Position numbers and translations under genes: made by a program. From NCBI GenBank assembly GCA_902627055.1, contig CACOHS010000005.1:1-64000 (forward strand): 64,000 bases of DNA. Reading direction: 5' to 3'. Below are positions 2-12,175 of the stretch, piece after piece. Each line of letters begins with the position of its first letter. The first letter of the stretch is position 1. The notes under the pieces were generated by a model. That model was not told the DNA's origin, did no database searches, and saw nothing but the letters and a program-made list of their open reading frames with translations. Source of the stretch: an uncultured SAR86 cluster bacterium. GTDB lineage: Bacteria > Pseudomonadota > Gammaproteobacteria > Magnimaribacterales > D2472.

Positions 2-103
2 GAGGACGGCTCAAACTCCTTCTTTACTTGGGGGCAAGATAGGATATGGTTACTTAAAGAAGAGATTTACAAACGTTTAGAGAAAAGCCATGAAAAATTA
101 TAA
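2..103 (+). CDS. C-terminal end of an unidentified gene (partial)
   Basis: An open frame enters from the left edge and ends at TAA 101-103, giving about 33 residues with ordinary codon use, including the stretch TWGQDRIWLLKEEIYKRL. It overlaps the start of the next gene by 14 bases, a common arrangement in this compact genome, so it is probably the tail of the preceding gene in the same operon. The piece is too short to assign a family, and no domain can be recognised. Confidence 0.55.
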   Translation, partial: EDGSNSFFTWGQDRIWLLKEEIYKRLEKSHEKL

Positions 104-2057
104 TTATTTTTTTTTAGTAATTGTTCTTAGTTTTGTTGCATGTTCAGATCCCAATAATCTTGATCACTTTGAAGACGTTATTAAAGAACAGTCTTATGAG
201 GATTTTCAGCTTCAATCAAGACCGCCTGCCAATCCTGACAAAAATGCGTATTTTGGTGATTTGCACGTTCATACTGCCAATTCTCTTGATGCATATACAT
301 TCGGAACAATTACATCTCCAACAGATGCATACCGATATGCTCAAGGAGATGCAATTTTACATCCATCAGGTTATCAAATTCAGCTATCAAGACCTTTAGA
401 TTTTTATGCTGTTACTGATCATGCATATTTTCTGGGCCTTCTTAATGAAGCAGCCGATACCAATTCAGAGTTTTCAAGATATGAGGTTTCACAGCCGCTG
501 CATGACTTAAATAATCCAGCCGGCACAGGATTTATATCTCTTATGAAAAGAGCCAATCTTTTTAGACCTTTAGCTCGATCAATTGTTGAAGGTATTGAAA
601 ATGAGGAAATTGACAGATCTCTTGTATCTAAAATTGGAAGAAGTGTATGGCAGGAAACAATTGAAGCTGCAGATAATGCATATAGACCAGGACTTTTTAC
701 TACTTTTGCTGGCTATGAATATACTTCTGGTACTGGTATATATGATAATTATTTACATCGAAATGTTATCTTTCGTAGCACTCAAAATTTACCCTTAAAT
801 CTTTTTTCTAGGGATGATCCTGATCCTGAAAAGCTTTGGGATTGGATGGATAGACTAAGAGAGAATGGAATTGAAAGTTTAGCGATACCTCATAATACAA
901 ACCTTTCTGGAGGGGTTGCATTTTCACTTTATGATTTTAATGGCGGCCCAATAGATCAAGAGTATGTTAAAAAAAGATCTTTGAATGAGCCTTTGGTTGA
1001 AATTACTCAAACAAAAGGAACTTCTGAAACACATCCTTTCTTATCAAAGAATGATGAGTGGGCAGCATTTGAAACAAAATCTGGTGTTAAAGATGAGGAG
1101 CTTGTAAGTAATATTAAAGGTAGCTATGTAAGGGATGCCTATTTACGTGGTTTGACTTTAGAGGAAAAAGGCATAGGTAACCCTTTTAAATTTGGCCTGA
1201 TTGGATCAAGTGATACCCATGTTTCAGGCTCTTCTGAAAGTGAAGAATTCTTTTTTTCAAAAGCTGGACTATTGGATGGAGAGCCAGACTTAAGGGGCTC
1301 AATTCCTTTCAGTCGATTCTATGGAACATTTCTCAAAATTGCTCAGCCAGAAATGTTTAAAGAAGTAGATGGAAGAAACTATTTTGCGGCAAGTACTCGT
1401 CTGATTCATTTTTCATCTTCTGGTCTAGCTGGAGTTTGGGCTGAGGAAAATACACGTGAAGCTATTTATGACGCTTTGCGTCGAAAAGAGACCTTTGCTA
1501 CAAGCGGCCCACGAATGAAAGTTAGATTTTTTGCAGGATATAATTTTGAAAATTTTCAGCTTAATGATCTATCTCTGATTCAAGATGCTTACAAAACAAG
1601 TATGCCCATGGGCGGAACATTAAATATTGATTCAAATAAAAATCCAACTTTTTTAGTTTGGGCAATAGCCGATCCTCTGGGTGCTCCATTACAAAGGACT
1701 CAAATTGTAAAAGGATGGCTGGAGGATGGAGAGCATAAAGAAAAAGTTTTTGATGTGGCTTGCTCTGATGAAATGAATGTTGATCCCAGTAATCATCGTT
1801 GTCCTGATAATAATGCATGGGTAGATTTAACTGACTGTTCAATTAGTGCAGATTCAGGATCTAGAGAGATGAAGGTTTTTTGGCAAGATCCCGAATTTAA
1901 AATTAATCAAAAAGCATTTTATTACGCTAGAGTTATTGAAAATCCAGTTTGCAGGTGGTCAACATGGGATTCGATCAGAAATGGTCAGAAACCAAGATCC
2001 GATATACCTTCAACAATTCAAGAAAGAGCCTGGTCTTCGCCTATTTGGTTAAAGTGA
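90..2057 (+). CDS. DUF3604 family lipoprotein, putative PHP-like metal-dependent hydrolase
   Basis: The 655-residue product has a lipoprotein signal: a hydrophobic stretch at residues 6-17 ending in FVAC with Cys18, followed by Ser, which favours the outer membrane. The mature part matches DUF3604: DLHVHT at 57-62, TDH at 109-111, HNTN at 268-271 and SSDTH at 373-377. These His/Asp clusters are typical of PHP-type metal phosphoesterases. A conserved family tail ends in AWSSPIW. The family has no firmly established substrate, so a periplasmic or surface hydrolase is inferred. It sits 13 bases before an SDR gene, probably in one transcript. No strong ribosome-binding site is visible before ATG 90. 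Confidence 0.85.
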   Translation: MKNYNYFFLVIVLSFVACSDPNNLDHFEDVIKEQSYEDFQLQSRPPANPDKNAYFGDLHVHTANSLDAYTFGTITSPTDAYRYAQGDAILHPSGYQIQLSRPLDFYAVTDHAYFLGLLNEAADTNSEFSRYEVSQPLHDLNNPAGTGFISLMKRANLFRPLARSIVEGIENEEIDRSLVSKIGRSVWQETIEAADNAYRPGLFTTFAGYEYTSGTGIYDNYLHRNVIFRSTQNLPLNLFSRDDPDPEKLWDWMDRLRENGIESLAIPHNTNLSGGVAFSLYDFNGGPIDQEYVKKRSLNEPLVEITQTKGTSETHPFLSKNDEWAAFETKSGVKDEELVSNIKGSYVRDAYLRGLTLEEKGIGNPFKFGLIGSSDTHVSGSSESEEFFFSKAGLLDGEPDLRGSIPFSRFYGTFLKIAQPEMFKEVDGRNYFAASTRLIHFSSSGLAGVWAEENTREAIYDALRRKETFATSGPRMKVRFFAGYNFENFQLNDLSLIQDAYKTSMPMGGTLNIDSNKNPTFLVWAIADPLGAPLQRTQIVKGWLEDGEHKEKVFDVACSDEMNVDPSNHRCPDNNAWVDLTDCSISADSGSREMKVFWQDPEFKINQKAFYYARVIENPVCRWSTWDSIRNGQKPRSDIPSTIQERAWSSPIWLK

Positions 2058-2070
2058 AATTATTAACACA

Positions 2071-2874
2071 ATGAGTAAGTCAAAAAACAATCTTGCACTT
2101 GTCACAGGCGCCTCTGACGGAATAGGAGCTGAATTCGTAAAAATTTTAGCAAGTCGAGGATATGATTTAGTTCTTGTTGCTCGTCGTGAAGAGAAACTTA
2201 AGGAGTTAGCAGTTAAATTGACCGATGAATTTGGGATCAGTTGTACTGTTATAGCAACAGATTTATCAGAGCCTAAGGCAGCTCAAAGCTTGTTCACTCG
2301 AGTCGAAGAAAGAGGCTTACAAGTAAATTTTTTAATCAATAATGCAGGACTTCTTCACAATGGATTTTTTACAAAACTTAGCCTTGAAGCTCAAGAAAAA
2401 ATGATTCAAGTTAATGTCATGGCGCTGACCACTTTAACTCATTTATATGCACACAATATGTCCTCTAATGGAGGCGGGCATATACTTAATGTCGCTTCAC
2501 TGGCAGGTTGGATGGCTATTCCAAATCAGAATGTTTACGCTGCATCAAAAGCTTATGTTGTATCTTTTTCTCAAGCATTATCAAATGAAATGATTGCTTC
2601 AAATAGTGGGGTTAAAGTAACAGCATTATGCCCTGGTTATACAGCTACAAAAATGATGGATAATCCTGATCAAGGCGCGACTCTTCGCATTCCATCAAGC
2701 ATGATGATGTCGGCTAAAGATGTTGCTGAGATTGGCATAAAAGCATGTTTTGCAGGCAAAGATATTGTAGTTCCAGGTCTTGCTAATAAGTTCACCACTA
2801 TCATCACTCGTCTCTTTTCAAAATCGTTAATAACAAAGATTTTTGGTTCTTTCTACCGTAAGAATATGCACTGA
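2071..2874 (+). CDS. Short-chain dehydrogenase/reductase (SDR), classical type
   Basis: The 267-residue protein is a classical SDR, an NAD(P)H-dependent oxidoreductase with a Rossmann fold. The cofactor motif TGASDGIG is at residues 12-19, NNAG at 90-93, and the catalytic Ser143, Tyr156 and Lys160 are all in place. Arg residues after beta-2 (VARRE, 36-40) suggest NADP(H) preference. It resembles bacterial SDRs acting on lipid-like carbonyls, but the substrate cannot be read from sequence. It lies between the DUF3604 lipoprotein and an epimerase-like gene. Arginine codons are mostly CGN, unlike the AGA-rich core genes further on. Confidence 0.9.
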   Translation: MSKSKNNLALVTGASDGIGAEFVKILASRGYDLVLVARREEKLKELAVKLTDEFGISCTVIATDLSEPKAAQSLFTRVEERGLQVNFLINNAGLLHNGFFTKLSLEAQEKMIQVNVMALTTLTHLYAHNMSSNGGGHILNVASLAGWMAIPNQNVYAASKAYVVSFSQALSNEMIASNSGVKVTALCPGYTATKMMDNPDQGATLRIPSSMMMSAKDVAEIGIKACFAGKDIVVPGLANKFTTIITRLFSKSLITKIFGSFYRKNMH

Positions 2875-2905
2875 AAAGTTAGAATTATTTTGCTAAGGTT
2901 TTCAT

Positions 2906-3886
2906 ATGAGCGAACAAGCTATTAAAAAAATACTTATAACTGGAGCTAATGGATTCATTGGTGGATCATTGATGAGTTATTATCAAAATAATGGTCAAGA
3001 TGTTGTTGGCGTTGATCTTATTGGTAATGGTGACAATATTATAGAGGGTGATATATCTCAGCCAGAAACAATTAATCAGCAGCTACAAGAATGCGATGTG
3101 ATTATTCACACAGCTGCTTTGGTCTCTAATGCAATGCAAGATTCCGATATGTGGCGAGTTAATGTCTTAGCAACTCGTAACTTAATTCAAGCAGCAAAAG
3201 AGCATAAAGTTAGACGTTTCGTTCAAATTTCATCAATAGTTGCTTACGGAAATTCTGCAGAGGGTGAGTTAGATGAAACTTATCCTGTGCATGCCGATGG
3301 TGGAAGCTATGTACTGACAAAACTAGCCTCAGAGCATGTTGTCTTAAGCGAGCAAGCTAATGATGATATAGAAGTAGTGATCATTCGGCCAGGAGATGCA
3401 TATGGTCCAGGTAGCCGTCCTTGGATTATTGCTCCATTGGAAGCAATTGCTAAAAATCAGTTTATGTTGCCCGAAAAAGGAGAGGGATTTTTTAGACCCA
3501 TATATATTGATGATTTAGTTAGAGGTATCGCAATGGCATCGAGCCATCCAGATGCTGATGGCGAAATTTTTAATTTATCTTGCGAGGGTTATATGTTAAC
3601 CAAAGACTATTTCACCCCTCACTATCAATGGTTAGGTAAAAAGCGACCCATGGTTGTTTCGACCAACCTAGCTTTAAAAATCTCAGCCATAGCATCAAAA
3701 TTAGCCGATCTTATGGGCAATCTGAATGAAGCCTCGCCATCAACAGTCAAACAGCTTTCAACTAAGTGTTGGTTTTCAATTAAAAAAGCAGAACGCGTCC
3801 TTGGATGGAGGCCTGAAATTTCATTTGAGGAGGGCATGAAAGTAACTCATGAGTGGGCTCAGAAGGAAGGATTAGTAGGCAAATAA
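2906..3886 (+). CDS. NAD-dependent epimerase/dehydratase (extended SDR)
   Basis: The 326-residue protein is an extended SDR. The nucleotide-binding motif TGANGFIGG is at residues 12-20, and the YxxxK pair is Tyr135/Lys139 in SYVLTK. It looks closest to the 3-beta-hydroxysteroid dehydrogenase/sugar epimerase group, with no feature fixing the substrate (sterol-like lipid, sugar nucleotide or other). It follows the SDR by 31 bases and is the last gene before a 124-base gap holding a candidate promoter, so it probably ends the first transcription unit. Arginine codons are CGN-rich as in its neighbours. Confidence 0.85.
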   Translation: MSEQAIKKILITGANGFIGGSLMSYYQNNGQDVVGVDLIGNGDNIIEGDISQPETINQQLQECDVIIHTAALVSNAMQDSDMWRVNVLATRNLIQAAKEHKVRRFVQISSIVAYGNSAEGELDETYPVHADGGSYVLTKLASEHVVLSEQANDDIEVVIIRPGDAYGPGSRPWIIAPLEAIAKNQFMLPEKGEGFFRPIYIDDLVRGIAMASSHPDADGEIFNLSCEGYMLTKDYFTPHYQWLGKKRPMVVSTNLALKISAIASKLADLMGNLNEASPSTVKQLSTKCWFSIKKAERVLGWRPEISFEEGMKVTHEWAQKEGLVGK

Positions 3887-4010: not shown

Positions 4011-5627
4011 ATGCGTCTGTGGAATGGATGGGGAAATGAAAATAGTGAGCTAACTATGGAGCTTAATGACGGTCTTCGAGCGTTATTAGAAGCTTTAGTA
4101 GGGCCAGGAACTTCACTTAATCAAGCAAGCTTAAAAGAGGTAATTTCTAACGTACCAACTTCTCGTCTTGATGACCATGCTTTAATTAAAACTGATCCGG
4201 AAACACGAGTACGACATGCGAGAGGTCAGAGTTTGCCAGATTGGTTAGATATGCATAGCGGCAATGTTGATACATTTCCTGATGGCGTTGCATTTCCAGA
4301 ATCTACAGAGCATGTAAGAGAACTTCTTGCTTATGCTAGAGAGAATGACTTAGTTGTGATTCCTTATGGTGGAGGTACATCAGTTGTTGGTCATATAAAT
4401 CCTATGAAGAGCGACAGACCAATATTAACCATAGATATGGGAAATATGAGTTCTTTATTGAGCATTGATACTGAAAGTCAACTGGCTACTTTTGGAGCTG
4501 GAACTCCAGGTCCTGTCGTGGAAGAAGCTCTGAAAGAACATGGCTATACATTAGGTCACTTTCCACAATCCTGGGAGCTATCTACTTTAGGGGGATGGGT
4601 GGCAAGTCGATCAAGCGGTCAACAATCTCTTCATTATGGCCGCATAGAAAACATGTTTGCTGGTGGAATTATCGAAACTATGAATGGCACCATGACAATT
4701 CCCACCATCCCAGCATCTTCAGCTGGTCCTGATATTCGAGAGATGATTCTTGGCTCTGAGGGCCGCATTGGTATTATTACCGAAGTAACTGTACGGATAA
4801 CACCTGTGCCTGAGGAAGAAAAATTCCAAGTGATCTTTTTTCCTTCTTGGCAAATTGGTATTAACGCTGCAAGAGAATTGATTCAACAGCGAGTTGCATT
4901 GTCTATGGTTCGATTAAGTAATCCACTTGAGACAACGAGTCTATTATATATGGGTGCAGGAAGTGATAGTAGTGGAGTGGTTGCACTTGAGAAATCCTTA
5001 TCTGAAAAGGGTATTGGTGAAGGAAAAGTGATGATGACATTTGGAGTTACTGGCTCAGCTCGTCATTGCGAAACTGCATATCAACTTGCAATTGATCATT
5101 GTGCTGCCCTCGGTGGTTTTGTAGATCAGTCTGGTCTTGGAGAGAACTGGGCTCATGGTCGATTCCGTGCTCCATATCTTCGTGACCCCCTTGGTGCAGA
5201 GGGATATATAGTAGATACCATGGAGACGGCAGTTGATTGGTCAAAAGTTTCTGAAGCTGCAGAAAATATAGAAGAAGCAATTCGAACTGCATTAGATGAC
5301 GAGGGTGAGCGGGTTCATGCTTATACGCATTTATCTCATGTCTATGGCCAGGGATCGAGTATTTACACTACTTATTTATTTCGCATAGGTGAAAGTTATG
5401 AGTTAGGAAAGAATAGATGGATGAAATTAAAAAAAGCTGGTGCTGATCAGATTGTCGCTCATGGTGGCACCATTAGTCATCAGCATGGTGTTGGAAGCGA
5501 TCACAAGAACTATCTTGCTGAAGAAAAGGGTGAGTTTGGCATCGCTGCAATTAATAGCTTATGCAAGCAATTTGACCCCTATGGACAAATGAATCCTGGG
5601 AAATTACTCCCTGACAATGAGCATTAA
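4011..5627 (+). CDS. Alkylglycerone-phosphate-synthase-like FAD-binding oxidase
   Basis: The family exchanges the acyl group of acyl-dihydroxyacetone phosphate for a fatty alcohol, forming the ether bond of ether lipids. The 538-residue product shows the AGPS N-terminal WNGWG (residues 4-8), the FAD (PCMH) loop IPYGGGTS (117-124), a HFPQSWELSTLGGWVASR block, the region around the catalytic tyrosine (SSIYTTY, Tyr about 452) and a C-terminal histidine motif SHQHGVG. Animal AGPS has HHH where this has HQH (490-492). I chose ATG 4011 over upstream TTG/GTG codons because it places WNGWG at the family position and has GGTGA just before it. It heads an operon with GlpD and an FGGY kinase. AGPS activity is inferred; a related flavin oxidase role is possible. 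Confidence 0.8.
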   Translation: MRLWNGWGNENSELTMELNDGLRALLEALVGPGTSLNQASLKEVISNVPTSRLDDHALIKTDPETRVRHARGQSLPDWLDMHSGNVDTFPDGVAFPESTEHVRELLAYARENDLVVIPYGGGTSVVGHINPMKSDRPILTIDMGNMSSLLSIDTESQLATFGAGTPGPVVEEALKEHGYTLGHFPQSWELSTLGGWVASRSSGQQSLHYGRIENMFAGGIIETMNGTMTIPTIPASSAGPDIREMILGSEGRIGIITEVTVRITPVPEEEKFQVIFFPSWQIGINAARELIQQRVALSMVRLSNPLETTSLLYMGAGSDSSGVVALEKSLSEKGIGEGKVMMTFGVTGSARHCETAYQLAIDHCAALGGFVDQSGLGENWAHGRFRAPYLRDPLGAEGYIVDTMETAVDWSKVSEAAENIEEAIRTALDDEGERVHAYTHLSHVYGQGSSIYTTYLFRIGESYELGKNRWMKLKKAGADQIVAHGGTISHQHGVGSDHKNYLAEEKGEFGIAAINSLCKQFDPYGQMNPGKLLPDNEH

Positions 5628-5633
5628 GCTATC

Positions 5634-7226
5634 ATGAATGGATTTACTAATCGTGCGCAACTTCTATCTAAAATGCGCAACGGTGAGCATTTAGATTGGG
5701 ATATTATTGTAATTGGTGGGGGTATCACAGGAGCAGGTGTTCTTCGTGAAGCACGACGTCAAGGTTACAGGGCGTTGTTACTAGAGCAACAAGACTTCTC
5801 ATGGGGCACCTCTAGTCGCTCATCAAAAATGGTTCATGGAGGTTTGAGATATCTTGCTTCAGGCGATATAAAACTTACCAAAGAGTCGGTGCAAGAAAGA
5901 CAGCGCCTATTGAAAGAGGCTCCTGGATTAGTCGATCCAATCTCTTTTTATTTCACTTTTAGAAAGGGTAAATTTCCAGGTCGCATAGCTATGAAGATTA
6001 TTTTAACTATTTATGATTTTTTTGCTGGAGCTCAAGATAATAGATTCTGTAACAATGAGGAATTACTAGAGCGTTTTAAAGGCCTGGATGATAACAAACT
6101 TCAGGGAGCAAGCTGTTATACAGATGCTATGGTGGATGATTCGAGATTAGTTCTCCGTGTATTGCAAGACAGTATTGATGATGGCGGATATGCGCTAAAT
6201 TATACTAAAGTAGAAGATCTCTTATTAACAGATGGTCGTGTTTCTGGAGTAAGCATTCAAGATAGAGTTCATTCTGGCTCAATTCATTTAAATGCTCCAG
6301 TTGTTATTAACGCTACCGGAGCTTGGGCAGATAGACTTCGAAATGTTGTTAATAACGAGACTCGAATTAGACCGTTGCGTGGCAGTCACATTATTATTGC
6401 TAAATCTTTATTTCCAATATCCGATGTTATGACTTTTTTGCACGTTGATGATAAGCGAGGTGTTTTTGTTTACCCATGGGAGGGCACAACAGTTATTGGA
6501 ACCACAGATATAGATCATAATGAAGATATAGACATTGAGGCTGGTATCTCCGATCAAGAAGTGGATTACTTGCTAAAAGCTTTTAATAGTCAATTTCCAA
6601 GTAATTCACTTAAACGAAGTGATGTGCTATCAACTTGGGCCGGTGTTCGGCCTGTTATTGGTGCAGAAAAAAGTAAAGATCCTTCAAAGGAACGACGAGA
6701 TCATGCTGTTTGGTCTGATAATGGATTAATCACTGTAAGCGGTGGCAAACTTACAACTTTTCGGTTGATCGCATTAGATGCTCTGGCTGCGGCTAGGGAT
6801 AATCTTCCTGCAGCCAAAGAAATTACAGATGATCGTGTATTTTTGACTCCAAAAGTTTCTGCCGAGACCCTATCACCAAATAATATTAGCTGGGCTCAAC
6901 GATTACTTGGAAGATATGGTGAAAAAGCAATTGAACTTTTAAATGAAAGTTCAAAGGAGGAACATGACAATCTTGATGCAACTGAATTTTCATTAGCTGA
7001 ATGTAGGTGGGCGATAAAGTATGAGGCAGTAGAACATTTAGATGATTTGATGCTGCGAAGAACTCGTTTAGGCATGTGTCTGCCAAATGGTGGCAGTACT
7101 CTTTATCCAGCTTTAAAAGAATTATTCTTATCCAATCACAGCTGGGACGAAGAACGGTGGCAAAAAGAGGTAACTCGTTATGAAAAAATTTGGAGACAGT
7201 ATTACAGTCTTCCAAGCAATACTTAA
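5634..7226 (+). CDS. glpD: Glycerol-3-phosphate dehydrogenase/oxidase, GlpD family
   Basis: The 530-residue FAD enzyme oxidises sn-glycerol 3-phosphate to DHAP, usually at the inner membrane face with electrons passed to quinone. It has the dinucleotide motif IGGGITGAG near residues 27-35, the GlpD block SSKMVHGGLRYL (63-74), the DAO-domain TTVIGTTDIDH segment and SGGKLTTFR near the end of the FAD domain, followed by the C-terminal DAO_C region. Length is slightly above the E. coli enzyme (501). It starts 6 bases after the AGPS-like gene and would supply DHAP, the backbone that enzyme uses. Whether it serves general glycerol catabolism or this pathway only cannot be told here. Confidence 0.88.
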   Translation: MNGFTNRAQLLSKMRNGEHLDWDIIVIGGGITGAGVLREARRQGYRALLLEQQDFSWGTSSRSSKMVHGGLRYLASGDIKLTKESVQERQRLLKEAPGLVDPISFYFTFRKGKFPGRIAMKIILTIYDFFAGAQDNRFCNNEELLERFKGLDDNKLQGASCYTDAMVDDSRLVLRVLQDSIDDGGYALNYTKVEDLLLTDGRVSGVSIQDRVHSGSIHLNAPVVINATGAWADRLRNVVNNETRIRPLRGSHIIIAKSLFPISDVMTFLHVDDKRGVFVYPWEGTTVIGTTDIDHNEDIDIEAGISDQEVDYLLKAFNSQFPSNSLKRSDVLSTWAGVRPVIGAEKSKDPSKERRDHAVWSDNGLITVSGGKLTTFRLIALDALAAARDNLPAAKEITDDRVFLTPKVSAETLSPNNISWAQRLLGRYGEKAIELLNESSKEEHDNLDATEFSLAECRWAIKYEAVEHLDDLMLRRTRLGMCLPNGGSTLYPALKELFLSNHSWDEERWQKEVTRYEKIWRQYYSLPSNT

Positions 7227-7238
7227 AATGAGGTTATC

Positions 7239-8789
7239 TTGAACGAAAAGTATTTTTTGAGTATTGATAACGGAACTCAGAGTGTCCGGGCTATAGTTTT
7301 TGATATGAATGGTCAGCTTATTGCAAAAAGCAAAGTTGAAATTGAGCCTTATTTTTCTTCTCAGAAAGGATGGGCAGAACAGCATGCAGATTATTTTTGG
7401 AATTCCCTTTGTCAGGCTTGCCAAGAACTATGGCCAAAACTGTCTATCTCAAAAGAATTGATTGCTGCTGTCTCTGTCACTACTCAGCGTGCAACGGTAG
7501 TAACCATGGGAGAGGATAACCAACCTTTACGGCCTGCTATTAGCTGGTTGGATCAGCGAAAAGTAGATACTAAGCCTAAATTAGGAAAAGTAGAATCAGC
7601 CATAATGAGCCTAATTAGAGCCAAGTCATTGGTAGATTTGATGCATGCAGAGGCAGAAGCCAATTGGATTGAGCAAAATGAGCCTGAAATCTGGAAGCAA
7701 GTTCATAAATTTTTACTTCTTTCTGGTTATCATAACTATAAACTTACAGGCCAATATAATGATGCTATTGCAAGTACTGTCGGATTTTTTCCATTTGAAT
7801 ACAAGACACAACAATGGGCAGATCAAAATGATTGGAAATGGCGAGCTATGCCAATTCGATCAGAAATGTTACCAGAGGTCTTTCCAGCAGGATCTGTCCT
7901 TGGTGAGATTACCGAAGTAGCGGCTGAACAAACTGGAATACCACAAGGACTACCTTTGATTGCTAGTGGCTCAGATAAAGCATGCGAGGTTTTGGGAACT
8001 GGATGCATTAATGATGAGACAGGCAGCTTGAGCTATGGCAGCCTTGCTACATTGAATATCACTTCTGATAAATATCTTGAAGCGATACCTTTTTATCCTG
8101 CATATCCCGGAGTAATACCCAATACATTTAATATTGAGATGATGATTCAAAGAGGGTATTGGATGGTGAGCTGGTTTAAAAAAGAATTTGGACTTCAAGA
8201 AGATCAACTAGCAAAAGAAAAAAATGTCCAACCTGAAACTCTATTTGATAAATTACTAGCCAAAGTCCCACCAGGTTCTGATGGATTAATGCTGCAACCT
8301 TATTGGTCGCCTTCTAATGGAGATGGTCCTGAAACAAGAGGGGCAATTATTGGATTTAATGAAGAGCACACTAGGGCACACCTTTATCGCGCAATGATCG
8401 AGGGGTTAACTTATGCACTAAGGGAGAGCAAAGAACTTTTAGAAAAACGAAGTAAAAAAATTATTTCTCGCATAGTTGTATCAGGCGGAGGCTCTCAAAG
8501 TGATGAAGTCATGCAGATAACCGCTGATATTTTTGGTATGACCGTTTTTCGTCCACATACATTCGAAACATCATCCCTTGGAGCTGCTATTGCAAGTGCT
8601 GTTGGAATTGGTCTATATCCAAATTTTACTTCCGCAGTTGAAAAAATGACTCACGAAGGAGACAGGTTTGATCCTATAGCAGCCAATTCAGAAATTTATA
8701 ATGATCTATACCATAAGGTTTATAAAAAAATGTATGGCAACCTTAAACCAAGCTATGAGGCAATATGGTCAATCACAAACAGAACTTAA
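7239..8789 (+). CDS. FGGY-family carbohydrate kinase (glycerol kinase-like)
   Basis: The 516-residue protein has the two actin-like domains of FGGY kinases. The N-terminal phosphate loop is SIDNGTQSVRA (8-18), the catalytic base is probably Asp246 in GSDKACEVLG, and the ATP-binding SGGGSQ is at 415-420. Members phosphorylate glycerol, dihydroxyacetone, xylulose and other polyols. Coupling to GlpD makes glycerol or dihydroxyacetone the natural guess, but the sequence is not the standard GlpK type. Translation starts at TTG 7239 with an AGG upstream; no better ATG exists before the conserved loop. Confidence 0.85.
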   Translation: MNEKYFLSIDNGTQSVRAIVFDMNGQLIAKSKVEIEPYFSSQKGWAEQHADYFWNSLCQACQELWPKLSISKELIAAVSVTTQRATVVTMGEDNQPLRPAISWLDQRKVDTKPKLGKVESAIMSLIRAKSLVDLMHAEAEANWIEQNEPEIWKQVHKFLLLSGYHNYKLTGQYNDAIASTVGFFPFEYKTQQWADQNDWKWRAMPIRSEMLPEVFPAGSVLGEITEVAAEQTGIPQGLPLIASGSDKACEVLGTGCINDETGSLSYGSLATLNITSDKYLEAIPFYPAYPGVIPNTFNIEMMIQRGYWMVSWFKKEFGLQEDQLAKEKNVQPETLFDKLLAKVPPGSDGLMLQPYWSPSNGDGPETRGAIIGFNEEHTRAHLYRAMIEGLTYALRESKELLEKRSKKIISRIVVSGGGSQSDEVMQITADIFGMTVFRPHTFETSSLGAAIASAVGIGLYPNFTSAVEKMTHEGDRFDPIAANSEIYNDLYHKVYKKMYGNLKPSYEAIWSITNRT

Positions 8790-8810
8790 CTTTATTTTTT
8801 GGAGCAATTG

Positions 8811-9635
8811 ATGGATACCTTTAAAAACAAAAAAGCGCTTGTAACTGGTGCGTCTATTGGAATCGGTAAAGCCATAGCTATTGATCTTGCAACAAAAGGT
8901 GCTGAATTAATTTTGACTGCTCGGTCTCAAGAGCAATTAGAATCTTTGGCAAATGCAATAGAAGAAAAGGGTGGTAAAGCGCATGTCTTTTTAGAGGATT
9001 TAGCTCAACCGGGCTCAGCGGCGAGGCTACATCAGCAGATCACAGCTGCAAATCTTCAAGTTGATTTGTTAATTAATAATGCAGGTTATGGGAGATGGGG
9101 TCAATTTAGAGATTTTCAAAGAGATGATTACGCAAATATGATTCAATTGAATATTACATCGCTGACAGATCTTTGCCATTTATTTTTACCTGCTATGGTT
9201 GAAAAAGGTGAGGGAGGAGTTATCAATATCGGTTCATCTGCATCATTTTTACCAGTTCCCTATGCAAGTGTTTATTCTTCAACAAAAGCATACGTTTTAA
9301 TGTTTTCTGAAGCTTTACGATATGAGTATTCTGACAGTAACGTTCGAATTATGGCCTCTTGCCCTGGAGCAACCGATTCAAATTTTAGAAATGTCGCAAC
9401 GGAGAAATCATCTGATCGACTCAAACAAAGAATAAGTAAATTAAAAGGTGAGGGTCAAGTTGGAGATACTTGTGAAAGAGTTTCCAAAGAGACTTTAGAT
9501 GCTTTTTTAAAAAATAAGCATTATGTAGTGCCTGGTAAAGGAAATTTTAAGTTCGCATTTTTACCAAGAATTTTATCCAGAGCAAAGGTATTAAAATTTA
9601 CAGGCGACGCTTTCAAAAAGCACACCTTGAGTTAG
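8811..9635 (+). CDS. Short-chain dehydrogenase/reductase (SDR), second copy
   Basis: A 274-residue classical SDR with cofactor motif TGASIGIG (12-19), NNAG (89-92), a catalytic serine at 142/143, Tyr155 and Lys159. I start it at ATG 8811 because GGAG at 8801-8804 gives ideal spacing; a TTG at 8799 would lie on that site. It is a paralogue of the SDR at 2071 (same fold and similar length). In ether-lipid pathways the 1-alkyl-DHAP ketone is reduced by SDR enzymes (animal DHRS7B/PexRAP, yeast Ayr1), so an alkyl- or acyl-DHAP reductase role is a reasonable hypothesis given the position after the AGPS/GlpD/FGGY genes. It is not proven by sequence. Confidence 0.88.
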   Translation: MDTFKNKKALVTGASIGIGKAIAIDLATKGAELILTARSQEQLESLANAIEEKGGKAHVFLEDLAQPGSAARLHQQITAANLQVDLLINNAGYGRWGQFRDFQRDDYANMIQLNITSLTDLCHLFLPAMVEKGEGGVINIGSSASFLPVPYASVYSSTKAYVLMFSEALRYEYSDSNVRIMASCPGATDSNFRNVATEKSSDRLKQRISKLKGEGQVGDTCERVSKETLDAFLKNKHYVVPGKGNFKFAFLPRILSRAKVLKFTGDAFKKHTLS

Positions 9636-9674
9636 TTTTACCTGAATAGATTTTTTTTAGTAGCATAGGATCTA

Positions 9675-11207
9675 ATGGCAATTAAAAACAGACCAGAATT
9701 TGAAAAATTTCTTCAACGATTAGAAAAAAGCTCTGACGAATTTCGCGCATCTTCAAAAGAAAAAAGACATGCTAAAAAATATAGAACTGCTCGAGAAAAC
9801 CTTGCTCACTTAATAGATAAAGATAGTTTTTTGGAGTTTGGTCAATTTGCGGTTGCTGCTCAAAGAAGTCGAAGGGATTACGAAGAGCTTCAAGATAAAA
9901 CTAATGCTGATGGAATCATTACAGGCTTTTGTTCTGTTAATTCAGAATTAGTTGGTCCAGAAAACTCTCAAGCTGTTGCTATTGTTTATGATTACTCTGT
10001 TTTAGCTGGTACCCAAGGAGCCTTTCATCATATGAAATTAGATCGAATATGTGATCAGGCTAAAAAGTTTGAACTACCAATTATAATTTTTACTGAAGGC
10101 GGTGGTGGCAGACCTGGAGATACTGATGTGCTTATTCAGATAGCAGGATTACACATACCTTCTTTTTCCTCATGGGCTCAATTAAGTGGCACCTCATTAA
10201 AAATTGCTGTAAATAATGGTTATTGTTTTGCTGGTAATGCTGCATTATTTGGATGTTCTGATTTTCGAATTGCAACAAAGACCTCATGGATTGGTATGGC
10301 CGGCCCTGCAATGATTGAAGGAGGCGGTCTTGGTGTATTTGAACCAACTGATATTGGTCCTGTTTCGGTTCATGAACAGAATGGAGTGGTAGATTATGTT
10401 GCTGAAAATGAAGAGGAAGCAACTGAAATTGCAAAACAAATCCTTTCTTATTTTCAAGGTCCTGTAAGCAAGTTCTCTATTAATGATCAAGAAATTCTTC
10501 GAAACATCATGCCAGAAGACAGACGATATACCTATGAGGTGCGGGACATAATTAAAACGGTTGCTGACATTGATAGTTTTTTAGAACTTAAAAGAAATTT
10601 TGGTCAAAGCATTGTTACCGGATTTATTAGAATAGAGGGTAAGCCTTTTGCTCTTCTTGCAAGTGACTGTCAAAAACTTGGTGGTGCAATTGACTCAGAG
10701 TCTGCAGAAAAAGCCGCAGATTTTATTTCTATTTGTAATGATCATGATCTTCCAATTCTTGTTCTTGCTGACACTCCAGGATTTATGGTTGGCCCAGCAA
10801 GCGAGGAAGGAGGGGCAGTTAGAAGAATGGCATCTTTATTTAAACAAGGAGCAAATATTGAGGTTCCACTTGTAGCAATTTTTCTTCGAAAAGGATACGG
10901 ATTAGGAGCCCAGGCTTTGGTTGGAGGAAGTCTGCATAATCCTGTCTATACTGCAGCATGGCCAACTGGTGAATTTGGAGGCATGGGAATAGAGGGTGCT
11001 GTAAAACTTGGATATAGAAAGGAGCTAGAAAGTATAGAAGATCCTAATGAGCGAAAGGAACTGTTTGAAAAGCTAGTTTCGAAAATGTATGAAGTTGGTC
11101 AAGCAATTGAAGCTGCATCTTTTTTAGAAATCGATGCTGTTATTGATCCTGCAGAAACAAGAACGATAGTGCTAAAAGCTTTTAAATCTGCATTAGGAAA
11201 TTTGTGA
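9675..11207 (+). CDS. Acyl-CoA carboxylase carboxyltransferase subunit
   Basis: The 510-residue protein has two crotonase-like carboxyltransferase halves, as in the beta subunits of propionyl-, methylcrotonyl- and acetyl-CoA carboxylases. Visible marks include the oxyanion-loop region EGGGGRPGDTDV, the GNAALFGCSDFRIA segment and the C-terminal ADTPGFMVGPASE block with GLGAQALVGG. These enzymes transfer carboxyl from carboxybiotin to an acyl-CoA. No biotin carboxylase or biotin carrier gene is in this window, so its partner must be elsewhere. The next gene starts inside its stop codon (GTGA overlap), suggesting coupled translation. Substrate is unknown. Confidence 0.87.
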   Translation: MAIKNRPEFEKFLQRLEKSSDEFRASSKEKRHAKKYRTARENLAHLIDKDSFLEFGQFAVAAQRSRRDYEELQDKTNADGIITGFCSVNSELVGPENSQAVAIVYDYSVLAGTQGAFHHMKLDRICDQAKKFELPIIIFTEGGGGRPGDTDVLIQIAGLHIPSFSSWAQLSGTSLKIAVNNGYCFAGNAALFGCSDFRIATKTSWIGMAGPAMIEGGGLGVFEPTDIGPVSVHEQNGVVDYVAENEEEATEIAKQILSYFQGPVSKFSINDQEILRNIMPEDRRYTYEVRDIIKTVADIDSFLELKRNFGQSIVTGFIRIEGKPFALLASDCQKLGGAIDSESAEKAADFISICNDHDLPILVLADTPGFMVGPASEEGGAVRRMASLFKQGANIEVPLVAIFLRKGYGLGAQALVGGSLHNPVYTAAWPTGEFGGMGIEGAVKLGYRKELESIEDPNERKELFEKLVSKMYEVGQAIEAASFLEIDAVIDPAETRTIVLKAFKSALGNL

Positions 11208-12175
11208 AAAAAATTCTTATAACTCTTTTGATTATTTTTTTGCTTATATGGCTTCCATATTTTACTCAAACATACAAACTTAAAACATTAGCAGCGTCTG
11301 ACCTTCCCTCAAAGGGCGCATGGGTATCTTTGGAAAAAGGTAATCTTTATTATCGTTGGTATTATCCTGACGCAAAAGTAATGAACAATGAAACAGTTGT
11401 TCTTGTGCATGGGTTTTCAACCCCTCATTTTGTATGGGATGGAATGAAAGGATTTTTATTAGATGCGGGATACTCGGTCCTTGTGTTTGATCATTATGGT
11501 CGCGGATATTCTGAGAGACCAAAAATTAAATATACCAAGGATGTTTTTGTTCAATCCCTTAGAGGATTGCTTGATTCACAAAAAATTCCCGGGCAAGTGC
11601 ATCTAGTTGGTTACTCAATGGGTGGACCCATAGTAGGTCACTTTGCTAGCGAATTTCCTGACATGGTTAAAAGTATTTCTTTGATTGCTCCTGCAGGCTT
11701 TATGGCTGAAAACCCAACAAAGGATTGGTGGATTATGAAACCTCTGATAGGAGAGTGGTTCCTAAATGTTTTTGGCTCAAGACTGGTCTTTCAGGGCAAT
11801 GAGAATAAAAATGAGCCTCCAAGAGAAGATCCTCTAGCATTATCAAAAAAAGAGTTTATTGAAAAAGCAGGAGTGCAAATGCAATATAAAGGCTTCATTG
11901 ATGCTTTATTATCAACTGCTCGCAATTTTAATTTATTTAGTACTCAGGAAATGTTTGTTGATGTAGGAAATTTAAACAAGCCAATCCTGACTATTTGGGG
12001 AACTGAGGATGAAGTTGTTCCATTTATAGGAAGTAAAGAGCTGATGATTTATATTCCTCAATCTGAGTTACTAGTGTTGGAAGGAGGCAAGCATGATATT
12101 ACTTATGCTGAACCTTCAATAGTTGGTGCAGCTATTAGAGATTTTCTGATGAGTCAGTCTAAGGCTGAAGCTTAG
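11204..12175 (+). CDS. Membrane-anchored alpha/beta hydrolase
   Basis: The 323-residue protein begins with one hydrophobic helix (about residues 3-20), likely an uncleaved inner-membrane anchor. The rest is an alpha/beta hydrolase: oxyanion-region HGFS (69-72), nucleophile elbow GYSMGG with Ser138, Asp269 in WGTEDEVVP and His297 in GGKHD. Such enzymes cleave esters, lipids or C-C bonds. It starts with GTG 11204 overlapping the carboxyltransferase stop and closes the operon. Its end overlaps the convergent valS gene by 17 bases with no terminator between them. The context suggests lipid or acyl-ester hydrolysis, which is inference. Confidence 0.85.
   Translation: MKKILITLLIIFLLIWLPYFTQTYKLKTLAASDLPSKGAWVSLEKGNLYYRWYYPDAKVMNNETVVLVHGFSTPHFVWDGMKGFLLDAGYSVLVFDHYGRGYSERPKIKYTKDVFVQSLRGLLDSQKIPGQVHLVGYSMGGPIVGHFASEFPDMVKSISLIAPAGFMAENPTKDWWIMKPLIGEWFLNVFGSRLVFQGNENKNEPPREDPLALSKKEFIEKAGVQMQYKGFIDALLSTARNFNLFSTQEMFVDVGNLNKPILTIWGTEDEVVPFIGSKELMIYIPQSELLVLEGGKHDITYAEPSIVGAAIRDFLMSQSKAEA

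Follow-up and report, generated by a model that had tools for sequence, protein, structure and literature searches.

A conserved AGPS-GlpD-kinase gene trio of SAR86 bacteria and its possible role in the breakdown of glycerol ethers

Gene organization at the locus

The window analyzed here is a stretch of 64,000 nt on contig C5 (CACOHS010000005.1) of an uncultured SAR86 cluster bacterium (assembly GCA_902627055.1), the genome of which comprises 1.33 Mb in 36 contigs and is 88.65% complete. Between positions 4011 and 12175 it contains six intact open reading frames (ORFs) on the + strand, separated by 6, 12, 21, and 39 bases and ending in a 4-base overlap of a carboxyltransferase gene and a hydrolase gene. 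An earlier note on this DNA had described the six as a possible ether-glycerolipid operon; its description of co-directional genes, gaps, and overlap was confirmed from the ORF coordinates, and its family calls (AGPS-like, GlpD, FGGY kinase, SDR, carboxyltransferase, and hydrolase) were borne out by domain matches. The subject of this analysis is the first three genes, referred to below as the trio, in which DHAP stands for dihydroxyacetone phosphate:

4011..5627, + strand: AGPS-superfamily flavoprotein, 538 aa, with FAD_binding_4 and FAD-oxidase_C domains; proposed alkyl-DHAP ether-cleaving enzyme
5634..7226, + strand: GlpD-like FAD dehydrogenase, 530 aa, with DAO and DAO_C domains; proposed to oxidize the C2 hydroxyl, converting 1-alkyl-glycerol-3-phosphate to alkyl-DHAP
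7239..8789, + strand: FGGY kinase, 516 aa, TTG start, with FGGY_N/C domains; proposed alkylglycerol kinase

Comparison with a congener indicated purifying selection, with dN/dS ratios of 0.04–0.09 for the six genes (0.04–0.13 when three genes further upstream are included). Consensus scans of the locus for promoters and terminators yielded fewer matches than expected from shuffled sequence.

Conservation of the trio

The neighborhoods of the trio were analyzed in 80 named loci from a genome collection that was searched with the trio-type AGPS; they include SAR92/Porticoccaceae, Marinobacter, Pseudomonas, Hahella, Oleiphilus, Endozoicomonas, Rhodanobacter, and others. GlpD directly follows AGPS in 77 of the 79 loci with sufficient room on the contig, and FGGY comes next in 72 of 74. 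A divergent AraC-type gene precedes the trio in 41 of 75 loci with room; the SAR86 loci have no such regulator next to them. The sharing of this order across many genera implies that the adjacency is more than chance. L088 and L089 are the only two of the 80 loci that encode a trio-type AGPS (58–59% identity) without GlpD and FGGY alongside, despite room on the contig; their partner genes may be located elsewhere.

Because this collection had been searched with the trio-type AGPS, a second sample, an even set of 398 Pseudomonadota genomes, was analyzed. Its AGPS matches fall into two groups, with identities of 52–57% and of about 32% or less. All 14 members of the closer group that were checked have an adjacent GlpD, and the fifteenth (G066) is the trio locus L064. 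None of nine members of the remote group has a close GlpD homologue, two of them having matches of 24–25%.

The conserved unit consists of the first three genes only. Of the six-gene operon that had been suggested, the first half is conserved across genera and the second half does not belong to the conserved unit: SDR2, the carboxyltransferase, and the hydrolase vary even within the genus, for which reason a six-gene unit was rejected, and their homologues do not recur beside the trio outside the genus. Among other neighbors in the 80 loci, none was widespread across genera except the AraC-type gene. Nor is the cluster a peculiarity of marine gammaproteobacteria: it is also present in many other bacteria, from the sea as well as from soil.

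Within the genus, the AGPS-like gene is present in 17 of 25 incomplete relatives, with identities of 86–98%. At this locus, the nearest named relatives belong to the SAR86 cluster, SAR86E among them, and their AGPS-like proteins are 88% identical. Elsewhere in the SAR86 order, AGPS-like proteins are only distantly related (about 30%) and are encoded among different genes, the exception being a 74% fragment in G034, a genome of the same family. In another family of the order (L044–L048), a remote AGPS-like gene is followed by genes for an HD-domain protein (~192 aa) and a GH3 glycosidase with PA14 (~811 aa), with the same gene sizes in five genomes. At L038 (G009:C1 328500–348499), the DUF3604, FGGY, and hydrolase genes are split by frameshifts or stops and AGPS contains a TAG, a pattern more suggestive of sequencing error than of decay.

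Family placement of the flavoprotein

The best solved relatives of the flavoprotein are the alkyl-DHAP synthases (AGPS) of Dictyostelium (2uuu, E 4e-69) and of guinea pig (4bby, E 2e-60), far ahead of lactate, glycolate, and hydroxyglutarate dehydrogenase structures (E 1e-22 or weaker), so that the AGPS marks recognized earlier are real. In a maximum-likelihood tree of 47 AGPS-type and GlcD-type proteins, the two types are split with support of 100/100, and the trio flavoproteins form one clade (98/94), apart from a supported clade that unites the guinea-pig and Dictyostelium AGPS with several bacterial proteins. Judged by its sequence, the flavoprotein is a member of the AGPS superfamily (VAO-type) outside the clade of proven ether-lipid synthases. 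Phylogeny had been named beforehand as a check: the protein indeed stays inside the superfamily and separate from GlcD, but it does not join the eukaryotic AGPS.

The equivalents of guinea-pig R419, R515, Y578, H615, and H617 are kept in all 102 trio flavoproteins, while those of R419, R515, and Y578 are absent in the GlcD outgroup. The residues R352, R447, and Y508 of Dictyostelium AGPS, matched by alignment to guinea-pig R419, R515, and Y578, are important for catalysis (PMC3509576). The 100/100 split and the absence of these catalytic residues in GlcD led us to reject a GlcD/D-lactate-type identity. The same two results speak against a plain operon for the utilization of glycerol or glycerol-3-phosphate (G3P) that happens to include an unrelated glycolate- or lactate-type flavoprotein, a reading that would account for the GlpD and FGGY families and for the presence of a single detected GlpD in the genome.

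Two further positions are changed (guinea-pig numbering). Asp303 is replaced by Gln in all 102 trio flavoproteins, and in 100 of the 102 the middle His of the 615–617 motif, His616, is replaced by Gln (SHQHG), so that the HHH that marks AGPS synthase proper is missing. As the catalytic residues are kept and these two are changed, the trio flavoprotein should retain AGPS chemistry, with a different substrate or direction. AGPS has a channel that takes a C16 chain (PMC3509576).

The kept catalytic residues would also suit ether-lipid biosynthesis, the function that the earlier note put forward, in which glycerol is converted via G3P and DHAP (and acyl-DHAP) to alkyl-DHAP and an SDR reduces the latter to alkyl-G3P; the DHAP could in principle come from enzymes of the kinase and GlpD families. 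However, a supply of DHAP requires no dedicated kinase or dehydrogenase, and the known synthases fall outside the trio clade. An acyltransferase of the GPAT/GNPAT type is absent from the SAR86 cluster and does not travel with the trio across the loci; a GPAT_C acyltransferase was not found in the 88.65% complete genome, a result that leaves room for other acyltransferase types. A search for the FAR_C domain of fatty acyl reductases gave no match in this genome and none in the control genomes either.

Active sites of the kinase and the dehydrogenase

The trio kinases were aligned to E. coli GlpK, to which the SAR86 protein is 25% identical. The catalytic base Asp245 is kept in 90 of 90 trio kinases, and Arg83 and Trp103 are retained as well. 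By contrast, position 84 is never Glu (89 of 89 sequences; Gly or Ala in 86), and Gln246 is replaced by Lys in 89 of 90, so that the glycerol-pocket set of GlpK (R83, E84, W103, Y135, D245, Q246, and F270) is not retained; the positions of Y135 and F270 depend on the alignment and carry no weight in the argument. In GlpK, Arg83 and Glu84 grip the glycerol hydroxyls at the end opposite the phosphorylated one. The loss of Glu84 would create room for a substituent on glycerol, and the pocket of the trio kinase could thus, as far as its residues tell, accept a glycerol with a substituent at the far end. Nearly all genomes of the SAR86 order encode a separate FGGY kinase; that of the genome studied here shares 47% identity with E. 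coli GlpK and has all seven pocket residues. A separate GlpK and a trio kinase that is not of the glycerol type weigh against both glycerol utilization and ether-lipid synthesis.

The GlpD-like protein conserves the E. coli GlpD residues H50, R54, Y55, H233, R254, R317, R332, and K354. It belongs to the GlpD family, but with 283 of 360 bits it remains below the NCBIfam equivalog cut-off.

The PA3026-PA3024 operon of Pseudomonas aeruginosa

The SAR86 trio matches the PA3026-PA3024 operon of P. aeruginosa as its counterpart, a comparison based on the published description (PMC8151288) and on the Pseudomonas loci among the 80. The operon is controlled by the AraC regulator GliR (PA3027), and its function was left open by the authors (PMC8151288). 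Overproduction of GliR raised expression of the three genes 135- to 173-fold, together with that of the phospholipase C gene PA3464 (130-fold) and of the YegS lipid kinase gene PA3023 (47-fold; PMC8151288). Deletion of the operon did not affect growth with glycerol or citrate (PMC8151288). The lack of a glycerol phenotype, added to the residues and the tree discussed above, makes a plain glycerol operon very improbable.

The scheme proposed for PA3026-PA3024 is anabolic and ends in alkylglycerone phosphate, and the cluster was found in only a dozen genomes (PMC8151288); we argue for the opposite direction and found a far wider distribution. Our literature search, which covered open-licence papers, retrieved no later papers on the three genes.

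Other assemblies of AGPS-like proteins

AGPS-like genes were also found with other kinases. On plasmids of Streptomyces and Tsukamurella, an AGPS-like gene (37%) is accompanied by genes for GlpD, a TetR regulator, and a lipid kinase of the YegS/DAG-kinase type, without FGGY, and a Nonomuraea AGPS-like locus also contains GlpD. The gene order Rv2249c (glpD1), Rv2250c (regulator), Rv2251 (flavoprotein), and Rv2252 (diacylglycerol kinase) has been described for Mycobacterium bovis BCG and M. tuberculosis, and in one BCG data set these genes shifted jointly (PMC4564863). A third assembly is present in two gammaproteobacteria (G603 and G661; L198 1962–8260 and L199 578–6854), where genes for an MFS transporter, a GlpK-derived kinase with Ala or Cys at the position of Glu84, a GlpD-like protein, and a remote AGPS-like flavoprotein lie in a row. 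The L199 flavoprotein keeps R419, Y578, and HHH, but not R515. Judged by family, AGPS-type enzymes and C2 dehydrogenases thus occur together with kinases of three kinds that are unrelated or only distantly related, a lipid kinase being one of them. An apparent GlpD-AGPS fusion in L193 was rejected as an overlapping spurious frame in GC-rich DNA; the two are separate neighboring genes.

The MFS transporter of L198/L199 is of the sugar/aromatic-acid type, and this assembly may be an operon for importing and cleaving a soluble glycerol ether or glycoside. It bears on the alternative that the trio carries out a three-step breakdown of another 1-O-substituted glycerol (a glycosylglycerol, an alkenyl- or aryl-glycerol ether, or a monoacylglycerol), in which case something other than a fatty alcohol would leave. 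The sequence does not fix the leaving group, and the transporter suggests a soluble substrate in that assembly; the lipid-type kinase that substitutes in actinobacteria, the co-induction of phospholipase C in P. aeruginosa, and the C16 channel of AGPS point to a lipid instead. We regard a substrate of this other kind as rather unlikely for the trio.

Candidates for genuine ether-lipid synthesis loci in gammaproteobacteria look different. Genome G170 carries both kinds, the trio (L067) and a second AGPS (L073; G170:C4 452–4780) that pairs with guinea-pig AGPS in the tree (100/100); after it come genes for a GPAT_C-matching acyltransferase and for a reductase-like protein. At L071 (G062:C39 2591–5858), the AGPS gene has a PlsC-type acyltransferase gene on one side and an SDR gene on the other, with HMG-CoA reductase adjoining. 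Both AGPS proteins belong to the eukaryotic clade and have Asp303 and HHH. That such synthase-like loci carry an acyltransferase and a reductase, where the trio has a kinase and GlpD, is a further reason to consider synthesis by the trio improbable, although it was also proposed for PA3026-PA3024 (PMC8151288). Taken together, the position outside the synthase clade, the missing GPAT/GNPAT-type acyltransferase, the loss of Glu84 next to a separate GlpK, and the phospholipase C in the P. aeruginosa regulon run counter to the synthesis suggested earlier; the note's side remark on a possible reverse operation is taken up here as the favored direction.

A further AGPS-like subfamily, with HHH, is encoded on the plasmids L156, L159, L169, and L172 and at the related L157, together with gamma-carbonic anhydrase and/or CaiB-type CoA-transferase genes; L172 also has a GMC oxidoreductase and a TRAP transporter. 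Among the hosts are a dioxane degrader (L157) and an isolate obtained from plastic, and this subfamily may cleave other ethers.

A proposed route for the cleavage of glycerol ethers

The trio is, with somewhat better than even probability, an operon for the catabolism of glycerol ethers, with 1-O-alkylglycerols from ether phospholipids or diacylglyceryl ethers as the most likely substrates. The observations behind this proposal are the gene content, the conservation of the unit, the family placement, the kept and changed active-site residues, and the recurrent exchange of the kinase. In a first step, the FGGY kinase would phosphorylate the free terminal hydroxyl of an alkylglycerol, yielding 1-O-alkyl-glycerol-3-phosphate. 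The GlpD-like flavoenzyme would then oxidize the C2 hydroxyl to a ketone, giving 1-O-alkyl-DHAP. Finally, the AGPS-like flavoenzyme would run AGPS chemistry in reverse: C1 would be deprotonated and bound covalently to flavin N5, the C1 substituent would leave as a fatty alcohol and be replaced by water or a carboxylate, releasing DHAP (or acyl-DHAP) for central metabolism. The ether bond would thereby be broken without oxygen or pterin, and the alcohol could possibly be processed by the neighboring SDRs. The substrate, the direction, the nucleophile of the last step, and the fate of the alcohol are what we infer. An alkyl ether is favored as the substrate because a lipid kinase can replace the kinase, GliR brings in a phospholipase C, and AGPS has a C16 channel.

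Several points weigh against this proposal. Deletion of the P. aeruginosa operon had no phenotype on the Biolog plates used (PMC8151288). The exchange of His616 alters a motif of AGPS proper, the roles of Glu84 and Gln246 are those seen in GlpK structures, and other 1-O-substituted glycerols are possible substrates. In addition, the trio protein is the only GlpD detected in the 88.65% complete genome, and it may also oxidize ordinary G3P.

Neighboring genes

The trio is flanked on both sides by co-directional genes, and the operon span of 4011–12175 given in the earlier note leaves out the three upstream ones, at 90–3886:

90..2057, + strand: DUF3604 protein, head of the genus-level gene run
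2071..2874, + strand: SDR1, co-directional with the trio
2906..3886, + strand: NAD-dependent epimerase/dehydratase family protein, travels with SDR1
8811..9635, + strand: short-chain dehydrogenase SDR2, SDR family; accessory, genus-level
9675..11207, + strand: carboxyltransferase of the long-chain/single-chain acyl-CoA carboxylase type, Carboxyl_trans domain; accessory
11204..12175, + strand: alpha/beta hydrolase with an N-terminal hydrophobic segment; accessory

The gaps that precede SDR1, the epimerase gene, and the AGPS-like gene are 13, 31, and 124 bases, respectively. The order DUF3604-SDR1-epimerase-AGPS-GlpD-FGGY is constant in the genus, including the three upstream genes; across the loci, the presence of SDR1 and the epimerase beside the trio is limited to SAR86, SAR92/Porticoccaceae-type genomes, and L064. 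Two DUF3604 paralogues (~49% identical) flank the start of the cluster in the genus (window 90–2057; L034 1121–3196), the second one on the opposite strand with PPIase-type and HupE/UreJ-type genes.

Past FGGY, the gene content is variable within the genus. Ahead of SDR2, the carboxyltransferase, and the hydrolase, several species carry an insert that encodes a small membrane protein, MerR, an aldo/keto reductase, and in some cases a thioesterase; the species of the window has no such insert, and a relative with 94% identity (L032) lacks SDR2 and the carboxyltransferase. SDR2 possibly handles the released fatty alcohol. The best structure matches of the carboxyltransferase are 5fif (E 1e-160) and the long-chain acyl-CoA carboxylase 4rcn (E 3e-159), and a biotin-carboxylase protein of 640 aa is a possible partner.

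Implications and comparison with known systems

Marine animals contain ether lipids in abundance, and these compounds are regarded as stable biomarkers. If the proposal is correct, the retro-AGPS route is a bacterial, oxygen-independent sink for them, the orphan operon of P. aeruginosa is explained, perhaps together with the mycobacterial glpD1 cluster, and genes can be offered for alkylglycerol kinase activity (EC 2.7.1.93). It would also call for caution in taking metagenomic AGPS homologues as proof of ether-lipid synthesis. A broader version, to which we give slightly less than an even chance, is that cleavage of glyceryl ethers without O2 by an alkylglycerol kinase, an alkyl-G3P dehydrogenase, and a retro-AGPS is widespread, has come together at least three times with a different kinase each time, and feeds SAR86, SAR92, Marinobacter, Pseudomonas, and, in a lipid-kinase version, mycobacteria on ether lipids. 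A search of open-licence papers found no report of a bacterial gene set for alkylglycerol degradation.

The trio flavoprotein shares with guinea-pig and Dictyostelium AGPS the fold family by sequence, the FAD domain, the residues R419, R515, Y578, H615, and H617, and the N-terminal WNGWG motif. It differs from them in its separate clade, in the two exchanges to Gln, in the absence of the peroxisomal extension, and in having a kinase and GlpD as neighbors instead of the acyltransferase and reductase of synthase-clade AGPS. With PA3026-PA3024 the trio has in common the same three families in the same order and, in many of its relatives, a divergent AraC gene; the SAR86 trio itself lacks the adjacent AraC and forms part of a more extended series of genes that includes DUF3604, SDR, epimerase, carboxyltransferase, and hydrolase genes. 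Rv2249c-Rv2252 and the actinobacterial loci L154 and L155 likewise combine an AGPS-like protein, GlpD, and a kinase, but the kinase is of the YegS/DAGK type, the regulator is TetR, and the flavoprotein keeps HHH (in L154 and L155).

Alkylglycerol monooxygenase (AGMO) is an oxygen- and tetrahydrobiopterin-dependent membrane enzyme. It has been described as the only known enzyme that degrades alkylglycerols (PMC7911779). The overall task proposed for the trio, cleavage of the ether bond of alkylglycerols, is the same as that of AGMO, but the trio enzymes are unrelated to it, and the proposed route would require neither oxygen nor tetrahydrobiopterin.

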